From: Myxococcales bacterium
GTDB lineage: Bacteria; Myxococcota_A; Polyangia; Polyangiales; Houyiibacteriaceae
Length of the DNA stretch: 44,915 nucleotides
Reading direction: 5' to 3'
Assembly (NCBI GenBank): GCA_024640845.1
Contig: JAHEEE010000031.1
Location: 1 to 44,915 of the forward strand
The notes under the pieces are model-generated. The model ran no database searches. It saw only the letters and a list, made by a program, of their open reading frames with translations, and had not been told where the DNA came from. How positions within the stretch are numbered: position 1 is the stretch's first letter; each line of letters opens with the position of its first letter. This document shows positions 39,383-41,433 of this stretch, piece after piece. Made by a program: the position numbers and the translations under genes.

Positions 39383-40816
39383 ATGAAGCAGTACTTCGTC
39401 CAGACCTTCGGTTGTCAGATGAACGTCCACGATTCTCGTCGGATCGAGGAAGTCCTGCGCGGGAGCGGCTACCAGCAGGCCACAGAGCCCGCTTTGGCTG
39501 ACCTCCTGATCGTCAATACCTGCAGTGTTCGCGAAAAGGCGGAGCACAAGCTCATGAGCCTTCTCGGTACGTTTAGGCCCTTCAAGGAGGCCAGGCGGGG
39601 CACCGTCTTGGCAGTCGCCGGGTGCGTGGCGCAGCAAGAGGGGGAGCGGCTACTCAAGAAGGCGCCATTCGTCGACATCGTCCTTGGGCCCGACAACATC
39701 TCCGAGCTGCCGGCGCTGATTCGGGAAGTCGAACAGGGTGCGCCGCCGGTCACGCGCACCGTTTTCGACATGGATGACCCCCAATTCCTGAAAGCCAAGC
39801 CCCATGCCGACCGGCGGGAGGTCACAGCGTACGTGACGGTCATGAAGGGCTGCGACGAGCGGTGCACCTTCTGTATCGTTCCCTATACCCGCGGGTCGGA
39901 ACGCTACCGACCGGCGGACGAGATCGTCGAGGAGATCGGCGATCTGGTGGCCGGTGGGGTGCGCGAGGTGACATTGCTCGGACAGACGGTCAACTCGTGG
40001 CACGAGCCGGGTGAAGTCGCGGAGAGCGCCAAGTCCGAATCAAAGATGGCTGCGTCCACTTCTCAGTTCGCGGGGCTCCTCCGCCGGATTGCGACGGAGG
40101 TCCCGGAGCTCCTCCGCCTTCGCTATACCTCCCCGCATCCACGGCACATGACCCCGGCGCTCATCGCAGCCCACGCGGAGCTTCAGGTGTTGCCCGCACA
40201 CGTGCATCTGCCGGTGCAGTCGGGGTCGGACCGCCTGTTGCGTCGGATGGCGCGGCGCTACACCGCGGAGGACTACATCGCGCGCACCGACGCACTCAAG
40301 AACGCGAAGCCAGGGCTCACGCTGTCTACGGACTTCATCGTCGGCTTTCCCGGCGAGACCGAGGACGACTTCGAACAGACGCTCGCGTTGGTGCGCCGCG
40401 TCGGCTTCGTGGCGGCGTTCGGGTTCAAGTACTCTCCGCGCCCCTATACGCCTGCGTTGAAGCTTGGCGATGAGGTCCCTGAAGACGTGAAGGACGATCG
40501 CTTGGCTCGGTTGTTCGCGCTCGTGGAGATTCAACAGCAGGCGCATTTGCGCTCGTGGATCGGGCACCAGCTCAGCGTGCTGGTCGAGGGACCATCGCCG
40601 GGCGACACCGGACGTTTCGCGGGTCGCAGCGAGCGCAACGAGATCGTGCACCTGGTTGCCCCCGCCGGATATGATCCGACGGGCGAGCTCGTAACCGTGA
40701 CGATTGACGAGCCGTTCCGACACAGCTTGTCCGGCTTCATGACGGGCGCAGAGGGCCAGGCTGACCCGCCGCGCCGAACGCGGCTTTCAATCGTCGACGC
40801 GGGAGGCGCGTCCTGA
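39383..40816 (+). CDS. miaB: tRNA-2-methylthio-N6-dimethylallyladenosine synthase
   Basis: A 477-residue radical-SAM methylthiotransferase that adds the 2-methylthio group to i6A37 of tRNAs reading UNN codons. It has two [4Fe-4S] sites: the UPF0004 cysteines C11, C47 and C81, and the radical-SAM triad C157-x3-C161-x2-C164 (GCDERCTFCIVPYTRGSE). The C-terminal TRAM domain contains LVEGPSPGDTGRFAGRS. The start is ATG at 39383 (MKQYFVQTFGCQMN). It is divergent from tamA and followed after 11 bp by the VanZ-like gene. YgfZ and an A-type Fe-S carrier, both tied to MiaB maturation in E. coli, are encoded at 8605-9919. Confidence 0.96.
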   Translation: MKQYFVQTFGCQMNVHDSRRIEEVLRGSGYQQATEPALADLLIVNTCSVREKAEHKLMSLLGTFRPFKEARRGTVLAVAGCVAQQEGERLLKKAPFVDIVLGPDNISELPALIREVEQGAPPVTRTVFDMDDPQFLKAKPHADRREVTAYVTVMKGCDERCTFCIVPYTRGSERYRPADEIVEEIGDLVAGGVREVTLLGQTVNSWHEPGEVAESAKSESKMAASTSQFAGLLRRIATEVPELLRLRYTSPHPRHMTPALIAAHAELQVLPAHVHLPVQSGSDRLLRRMARRYTAEDYIARTDALKNAKPGLTLSTDFIVGFPGETEDDFEQTLALVRRVGFVAAFGFKYSPRPYTPALKLGDEVPEDVKDDRLARLFALVEIQQQAHLRSWIGHQLSVLVEGPSPGDTGRFAGRSERNEIVHLVAPAGYDPTGELVTVTIDEPFRHSLSGFMTGAEGQADPPRRTRLSIVDAGGAS

Positions 40817-40827
40817 GCCACGCTTCT

Positions 40828-41232
40828 TTGAGAGAGCGGCTTCGTCCCTGGCGGTTCGCGCTTCTTTATATGGCGCTCATCTTCGTCGTCTCTTCATTCG
40901 AGGTGGCGGTGCCCGGCGTGCAGCACCTTCCTTTTCGAGACAAGGCGCTTCACTTCGCGGAGTACGCGGTGCTTGGTTGGCTCTGCGCCCAGGCGTCGTC
41001 GCGCACCTGGCCGTCGTCCCGGGCGTGGCGAACCGCTGCGTTTGCGGTCTTCGTATCCGTGCTCTGGGGGCTTTCCGACGAGATCCACCAGGCGATGGTG
41101 CCAGGCCGTTCCTCCGAGCTAGCCGACCTCGTGGCTGACCTCCTCGGGAGCATCGTCGGTGCCGCGGCCTGGCATGTGTTTTCGAGCAGATCTGTGAGGC
41201 AATACACCGGAAAGTTCACCTCGATGGACTAG
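40828..41232 (+). CDS. VanZ-like membrane protein
   Basis: A 134-residue protein with about four helices and the VanZ-family landmarks DKALHFAEYAVLG (near 38-50) and SDEIHQAMVPGRSSELADL (near 83-101). VanZ of enterococci gives low-level teicoplanin resistance, but most chromosomal homologues have no known function. The start appears to be TTG at 40828, 11 bp after miaB; an ATG at 40870 would remove part of the first helix. No clear ribosome-binding site is visible, so it may rely on coupling to miaB. A promoter-like sequence begins 7 bp after its stop. Confidence 0.82.
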   Translation: MRERLRPWRFALLYMALIFVVSSFEVAVPGVQHLPFRDKALHFAEYAVLGWLCAQASSRTWPSSRAWRTAAFAVFVSVLWGLSDEIHQAMVPGRSSELADLVADLLGSIVGAAAWHVFSSRSVRQYTGKFTSMD

Positions 41233-41238
41233 CTGCCA

Positions 41239-41267
41239 TTGACGGTTCCGCTCCCACTACTTAAAGT
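41239..41267 (+). promoter_or_regulatory. Sigma70-type promoter candidate for an intergenic RNA
   Basis: TTGACG (41239-41244) and TAAAGT (41262-41267) are separated by exactly 17 bp. Five of six -35 positions and four of six -10 positions match the sigma70 consensus. The next 120 bp contain no gene start but end in a strong terminator. Confidence 0.55.
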
Positions 41268-41273
41268 TTAATC

Positions 41274-41397
41274 CATGGGGACGTAGACGTTCCCGATTCG
41301 AACAAACAACAAGCTTTGCCGGCGGAACCCCCCCATAAGTCCGCCGGCCCCCCCGCCCGGTCGTGCCCCCCCCTCCAACGACCGGGCGACCCTTTTT
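41274..41397 (+). ncRNA. Candidate small RNA with two C-rich hairpin loops
   Basis: Between the promoter-like element and a T-run is a 120-nt segment without a credible reading frame. Hairpin 1 has the perfect 9-bp stem GCCGGCGGA (41318-41326) / TCCGCCGGC (41340-41348) and a 13-base loop with seven consecutive C. Hairpin 2 has the perfect 10-bp stem CGCCCGGTCG (41354-41363) / CGACCGGGCG (41379-41388) and a 15-base loop TGCCCCCCCCTCCAA, followed by TTTTT. A promoter, two tandem stem-loops with C-rich loops and an intrinsic terminator is the layout of anti-Shine-Dalgarno small RNAs known in alphaproteobacteria. The 45-nt 5' part is A-rich and unstructured (AACAAACAACAA). The alternative is that these are two terminators of the miaB-vanZ transcript. 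Function is inferred. Confidence 0.5.
41354..41397 (+). terminator. Rho-independent terminator
   Basis: A perfect 10-bp G/C stem (41354-41363 with 41379-41388) is followed by ACCC and five T (41393-41397). This is the clearest intrinsic terminator in the window; it ends the vanZ transcript and/or the candidate small RNA. Confidence 0.8.
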
Positions 41398-41433
41398 AAG
41401 CCCGAGCCGAGCCGAGCCGAGGCGAGCTCGAGC

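Follow-up and report, generated by a model that had tools for sequence, protein, structure and literature searches.

The window analysed here, a stretch of 44,915 nucleotides from a Myxococcales bacterium of the family Houyiibacteriaceae (contig JAHEEE010000031.1), carries a promoter-like sequence directly behind its miaB and vanZ-like genes, followed by hairpins with long runs of C in their loops. The question raised by this locus is whether the hairpins only end the miaB-vanZ transcript or belong to a small RNA (sRNA) with a role of its own. The sequence and its conservation strongly support an independent sRNA, referred to below as the window RNA, over a double terminator. Our full reading is that the window RNA is an sRNA with its own promoter, acts in trans as a repressor and belongs to an order-wide group of C-loop RNAs; we give this reading a probability of roughly 75%. 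The features of the locus and its upstream neighbours are as follows.

41239-41399, forward strand: predicted C-loop sRNA gene with promoter, three hairpins and T5
41239..41244, forward strand: -35 element TTGACG; CATTGACG (alignment columns 20-27) is invariant in 16/16 genus sequences
41262..41267, forward strand: -10 element TAAAGT; genus consensus TAnnnT, with T, A and T invariant in 16/16 at the same spacing
41277..41294, forward strand: P1, 5' hairpin GGGGACG-TAGA-CGTTCCC, arms 41277-41283/41288-41294, from the consensus fold; loop without a C-run
41295..41317, forward strand: A-rich single-stranded linker, unpaired in the predicted fold and mostly A-rich in relatives
41318..41348, forward strand: P2, 9-bp hairpin with C7 loop, ACCCCCCCATAAG, arms 41318-41326/41340-41348, C-run 41328-41334
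41354..41388, forward strand: P3, 11-bp terminator hairpin with C8-UCC loop, GCCCCCCCCTCCA, arms 41354-41364/41378-41388, C-run 41366-41373
41393..41397, forward strand: T-run TTTTT of the intrinsic terminator, read from the sequence
39383..40816, forward strand: miaB, radical SAM tRNA-modification enzyme (UPF0004 and Radical_SAM), conserved upstream neighbour in the same position in relatives
40828..41232, forward strand: vanZ-like gene (PF04892), immediate upstream neighbour, in the same position in relatives

The promoter elements stand at 41239-41267 with a spacer of 17 nt, as the initial annotation had described them. Judged by these elements the promoter is of the sigma-70 type, and transcription would start near 41274-41276. 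Such a promoter match is not in itself above chance (1 found versus 0.5 expected), and the window has just a mild excess of C7 runs (10 versus 5.4 expected); the case therefore depends on comparison between genomes. For the predicted RNA (41274-41398) the folding energy is -52.7 kcal/mol, compared with -34.8 kcal/mol in shuffled sequences (z = -5.4; 0/200 shuffles). On the reverse strand of the locus the fold is less distinctive (z = -1.7), and no promoter or terminator was found there. The loops of seven and eight C and the TTTTT that follows them, also part of the initial annotation, appear in both sequence and fold. The accompanying description of two perfect G/C stems of 9 and 10 bp needs correction: the first stem does have 9 bp, but the second has 11, and each contains A-U pairs. 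P1 had been overlooked.

To follow the locus among relatives, we searched 38 genomes at the DNA level (its own genome, 18 others of the genus and 19 other genera). Matches were found in the own genome, which holds one copy, and in 16 of the 18 other genus genomes, while the window RNA was not found in any of the 19 other genera. Full copies are present in 15 of the 18 (G003 has a fragment, lying at the edge of a contig), and wherever the surroundings are visible the copies adjoin vanZ. G001 and G002 have neither an RNA nor a vanZ match, so that loss and incomplete assembly are indistinguishable there.

Alignment of the 16 full sequences, the window's included, revealed a promoter spacer of fixed length and variable letters, preceded by a -35 element in front of which the sequence (columns 1-19) varies. 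Across the RNA part of the alignment, standard pairs fill 95% of pair cells, compared with 31-54% for slid structures, and changes on both sides of a pair occur in 11 cells versus 4.2 in shuffles. Compensatory changes fall in two pairs of P1 and in two pairs of P2, where 94% of cells are paired. P3 is paired in 98% of cells and has covariation support from one pair; most of its pairs are invariant and thus uninformative on covariation either way. The sole relative with a damaged P3 3' arm (G014, locus L011) has an intact C-run. The C-rich loop of P3 is kept in 16/16 sequences and the C-run of P2 in 15/16 (it is degenerate in G008), while the linker and flanks drift. RNA lengths range from 126 to 132 nt with differences that are not in threes, which does not suggest a conserved reading frame. 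Conservation within the genus thus raises the locus above chance, and the conserved stems and C-loops that the initial annotation had proposed to look for in relatives hold across the genus.

These comparisons bear directly on how the hairpins should be read. The miaB-vanZ operon might simply end in a strong double terminator whose C-runs are passive loops, a reading that would fit the position of the hairpins directly behind vanZ and the good intrinsic terminator formed by P3 and the T-run. It would leave unexplained the conserved promoter between vanZ and the hairpins, the conserved P1 and the genus-wide C-loops, and loci of the same architecture elsewhere carry sigma-54-type boxes of their own (see below). 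Nor are C-loops the general terminator style of this genome: when C6 runs followed by T5 were collected from it, just two formed strong C-loop terminators, the window RNA and a second RNA, family B, treated below. We therefore regard a mere double terminator as very unlikely, and the independent sRNA originally put forward gains support from the conserved promoter with its fixed spacing, the stems, the C-loops and the retention of the RNA in the absence of a downstream gene. That gene belongs to the usual downstream order in relatives, which runs HAD-family gene, weakly DUF6263-like gene, lepA. Because it lies on the same strand in most relatives, the RNA might be taken for its cis-regulatory leader, but the RNA terminates about 200 bp before the gene. 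Moreover, G018 and G008 still have the RNA although neither the HAD nor the DUF gene was found there and lepA directly faces it; the window RNA thus does not serve the HAD gene as a leader, and we give that reading next to no weight. An sRNA processed from the 3' untranslated region of the miaB-vanZ mRNA, and acting through the same C-loops, is also unlikely. Its location directly 3' of vanZ on the same strand, with no strong terminator seen between, would suit such an origin, and read-through could contribute, but the invariant TTGACG and TAnnnT at 17 nt favour primary transcription.

Several further observations concern the surroundings of the locus. Short GAGCC/GAGGC repeats lie directly 3' of the terminator (41401-41430), where relatives have other repeats; in G013 (L014) an inverted repeat, AACCCTTTCAAAAAGGGGACAGTCCCCTTTTTGAAAGGGTTAA, is found 3' of the terminator. 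The VanZ frame of the window (40828-41232) is longer than that of most relatives, whose matched stretch has a stop near the C-terminus.

We then compared the window RNA, an independent sRNA in our reading, with known C-loop RNAs. The initial annotation had named the alphaproteobacterial cuckoo/CcsR RNAs as an example of the class to which it assigned this layout. Cuckoo RNAs are hairpin RNAs with C-rich loops, a likeness that the window RNA shares, and the cuckoo/CcsR loop motif is CUCCUCCC. This motif is missing from the window RNA, whose loops are ACCCCCCCAUAAG and GCCCCCCCCUCCA. A further mark of cuckoo/CcsR RNAs is that several copies are processed out of one transcript, which they share with a DUF1127 gene, whereas the window RNA is a single copy with a predicted promoter of its own, and its neighbours in Pfam terms are miaB, vanZ, HAD and lepA. 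CcsR1-4 arise as four copies when RNase E processes a ccaF1 transcript (PMC10253847). The Rfam model of ar7, also an alphaproteobacterial RNA, gave no match to the window RNA.

With its co-transcribed, processed copies and other loop motif, CcsR is more distant from the window RNA than the actinobacterial 6C/B11 family (RF01066). Three stem-loops make up B11 of M. marinum, the loop of the second carrying C6 and that of the third, which is also the terminator, C9; B11 pairs with G-tracts beside ribosome-binding sites (PMC12395582). The 6C RNA of C. glutamicum carries two C8 runs in about 100 nt (PMC4046766), and either C-loop is sufficient in M. abscessus (PMC10470900). The window RNA, with C7 and C8, shares the layout of three stem-loops, two of them with at least about six C and the last acting as terminator, so the statement that no published RNA has this exact arrangement was wrong (PMC12395582). 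It differs in phylum, and its stems are unrelated. Since the window RNA is not among the matches of the 6C covariance model even at E values up to 5-10, we call it 6C-like and do not file it as 6C. A similar architecture is found in sX13 of Xanthomonas, an Hfq-independent RNA with three stable stems and apical C-rich loops that represses mRNAs with G-rich motifs near the start (PMC3771888). sX13 is likened to the window RNA by architecture; it is gammaproteobacterial and has three C-loops of C4-C5, compared with two C-loops in the window RNA.

Within the phylum, the RNA to compare is Pxr of Myxococcus, which consists of three stem-loops, is predicted to be under a sigma-54 promoter and has tandem paralogs in Cystobacter (PMC5568312). 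Its published probe, ACCGGAAGTGCTGAAGGGGTGGGGGG, implies CCCCCCACCCC in stem-loop 1 (SL1) (PMC5568312); PMC5684412 states for its own probe that it pairs within SL1, and reports loss of function after a single C-to-A change in that loop. Pxr has been reported as recently arisen, basal to Cystobacterineae. A C-rich loop in a three-stem-loop RNA is common to Pxr and the window RNA, but the promoter of the latter is of the sigma-70 type, and its place is behind vanZ rather than beside the NtrC-like regulator pxrR (nla19). The Pxr SL1 sequence was not found in 379 genomes of the phylum with up to 3 mismatches. Because a defining feature failed in each of these comparisons, membership of the window RNA in the 6C, Pxr or cuckoo families is not established.

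Rfam yielded no credible match for the window RNA at gathering or relaxed thresholds, and likewise none for eight relatives. The 6C model, run over the genus, returned seven sub-threshold matches, none of them at the RNA locus and all unconvincing on inspection. When 84,980 species were scanned, the P3 hairpin sequence with a C6 loop turned up on 14 contigs, titled as metagenome-assembled genomes of Myxococcales, Deltaproteobacteria, Polyangiaceae or uncultured bacteria. In other genera, at loci readable in the correct direction, no RNA was found after vanZ, and a gamma-carbonic-anhydrase-like gene is often close. Outside the genus our covariance model R1 gave weak matches only. We rejected those in G042 and the second in G011, which look like terminators resembling parts of the window RNA, and that in G030, which is not a C-loop RNA. 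The match in G117 (locus L094), from another family of the order, has two C9-loop hairpins and a T-run with unrelated stems.

Because this match turned out to be a C-loop RNA, we searched the order by pattern (CCCCCC-N20-50-CCCCCC-N8-26-TTTTT; 184 genomes), with the reversed pattern as control. The pattern matched in 83/184 genomes, compared with 35 for the control (counted from the table). Among the first 13 loci of other genera, 10 have their C-runs in two hairpin loops; outside the order, 3 of 26 loci passed the same two-loop test. Twenty further loci of the order all have at least two C-loops, but these were selected for promising matched letters and give no estimate of frequency. The order-wide RNAs consist of two or three C-loop hairpins and a terminator, with unrelated stems, and none of 15 such loci reached a gathering score in Rfam. 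The ar7 model (RF02342, gathering score 60) gave sub-threshold scores of 28.8-35.3 bits on the C-loop RNAs L151, L130 and L139, those to L151 and L130 being 35 bits at an E value of about 0.0015. Some loci are tandem arrays, such as L389 (G074:C1:9573900-9575400) with four copies and L398 (G086:C233:11500-12900) with three; in these two the copies lie ~330-410 nt apart, each with a sigma-54-type box ~46-51 nt before its own first C-run.

We examined the sequence from -130 to -25 relative to the first C-run for such boxes. The definition of the box was changed stepwise after the sequences had been seen, from a first pattern to a strict form (TGGCAC-N5-[TC]NGC) and then to TGGC[AC][CTG]-N7-GC[AT]. 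The final form occurs at 27/30 loci of other genera (32/37 sites), mostly at -45 to -58, and by our tally these 27 loci span 18 genera and five families. Per 105-nt stretch of the fetched loci, the background of this form is 0.013, and it was found in 0/22 pattern matches from outside the order that lack two C-loops. The computed p of 3e-48 is not to be taken literally, since these same loci served to fit the form and they are related, several coming from one genus. Even the strict form, present at 15/30 of the same loci by our own count against a background of 0.013 per 200 nt, is far above expectation. Upstream sequence played no part in the search for C-runs, and the box signature therefore supports function independently. 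The window RNA has no GG-N10-GC box of the tested form in 41101-41330. At L156:1758-3050 (reverse strand) a sigma-54 activator gene (PF00158, Fis-type helix-turn-helix) adjoins a C-loop RNA; no such gene was recognised by eye among the longest open reading frames of nine other listed loci.

The genus of the window also has an RNA of the boxed kind.

G000:C59:26666-26735 (locus L139, 1416-1570): family B, second C-loop RNA of the genus, with three C-loop hairpins, of which the third is the terminator

Family B carries a sigma-54-type box (TTGGCACG...GCAT) in 7/7 aligned genomes and scores 31.4 bits against the 6C model (gathering score 47). The palindrome TTCAGATCTGAA lies upstream of its box (L139:1321) and recurs at L094:166, L390 and L393, loci that belong to another family of the order than the window genus; our guess is that it is a shared activator (enhancer-binding-protein) site. 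Genes near family B code for, among others, a histidine-phosphatase-family protein and an EamA-type transporter.

The order-wide group is one of shared architecture, whose members may also share a common descent. We class the window RNA as a 6C-like, sigma-70-type member of this group. The sigma-54 promoter and tandem paralogs of Pxr resemble those of most order-wide members, so that Pxr, compared here by its published description only, looks like a characterised relative of the group. We propose common descent of the order-wide loci with Pxr, with convergence as the alternative.

How the window RNA would act can be outlined by analogy. Transcribed from its own sigma-70-type promoter and ended by its intrinsic terminator, an RNA of ~120-125 nt would form three hairpins, the second and third exposing 7-8 C in their loops and the third doubling as terminator. 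The C-loops could then pair with G-rich Shine-Dalgarno regions of mRNAs (GGAGGGG type), and this pairing would block ribosome binding and promote decay, like 6C/B11 in mycobacteria. Antisense action of the C-loops in trans is probable by this comparison. The loops might instead bind a protein, such as Rho or another RNA-binding protein, which would make the RNA a sponge or scaffold. Rho prefers C-rich RNA, C-runs of such length are uncommon, and no target site found is as well conserved as the loops. Conversely, B11 and sX13 act by pairing with G-tracts (PMC12395582, PMC3771888, PMC10470900), and the UCC beside the C-run extends complementarity to GGAGG, which leaves a protein-binding role improbable.

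Several points weigh against the RNA acting as a trans-acting repressor expressed from its own promoter. Transcription and the start site are predicted from the DNA, and pairing with mRNAs and their repression are argued from the known C-loop RNAs. In five genus genomes, GGAGGGG-N4-11-ATG occurs 226 times, compared with 129 for the reversed sequence (about 1.75x), but ordinary Shine-Dalgarno sites can explain this excess. The search for conserved targets found just four ortholog groups that share a site and no strong conserved regulon, and the best target-loop duplexes, at -16 to -20 kcal/mol, were computed without a shuffled control. Half of the 140 fetched stretches (70) begin an open frame of at least 60 aa. 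GGAGGGGGG occurs about 20 times per genome over the genus, with no clear excess over the reversed control. The candidate target of most interest, as a lead only, is a lipoprotein-like gene (L224 = G000:C46:20097-20110, L289 and L317) that has the site in 3/3 genomes compared. Its start region, GGAGGGGACTTATG, is conserved (the 5' region of L224 is GGAGGGGACUUAUG); it matches the P3 loop over 9-10 bp in 2/3 and pairs with it at about -18 to -19 kcal/mol in 3/3.

Dozens of loci place C-loop RNAs in one Gram-negative order, in a group that apparently was previously unrecognised. It is conceivable, at somewhat less than even odds, that this group is large and ancient, extends across the order and probably the phylum, includes Pxr and is mostly controlled by sigma-54 and enhancer-binding proteins, the window RNA being a branch that moved to a housekeeping promoter. 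If so, the reported recent origin of Pxr would apply to just a single sequence lineage, and these bacteria would have a general regulatory layer of repression that is controlled by sigma-54 and works through G-rich ribosome-binding sites. Pxr acts as the gatekeeper of fruiting-body development, and its direct binding targets have been described as unknown (PMC11928866). Shared descent would predict that the C-rich SL1 loop of Pxr binds G-rich ribosome-binding sites, which is testable in Myxococcus xanthus.
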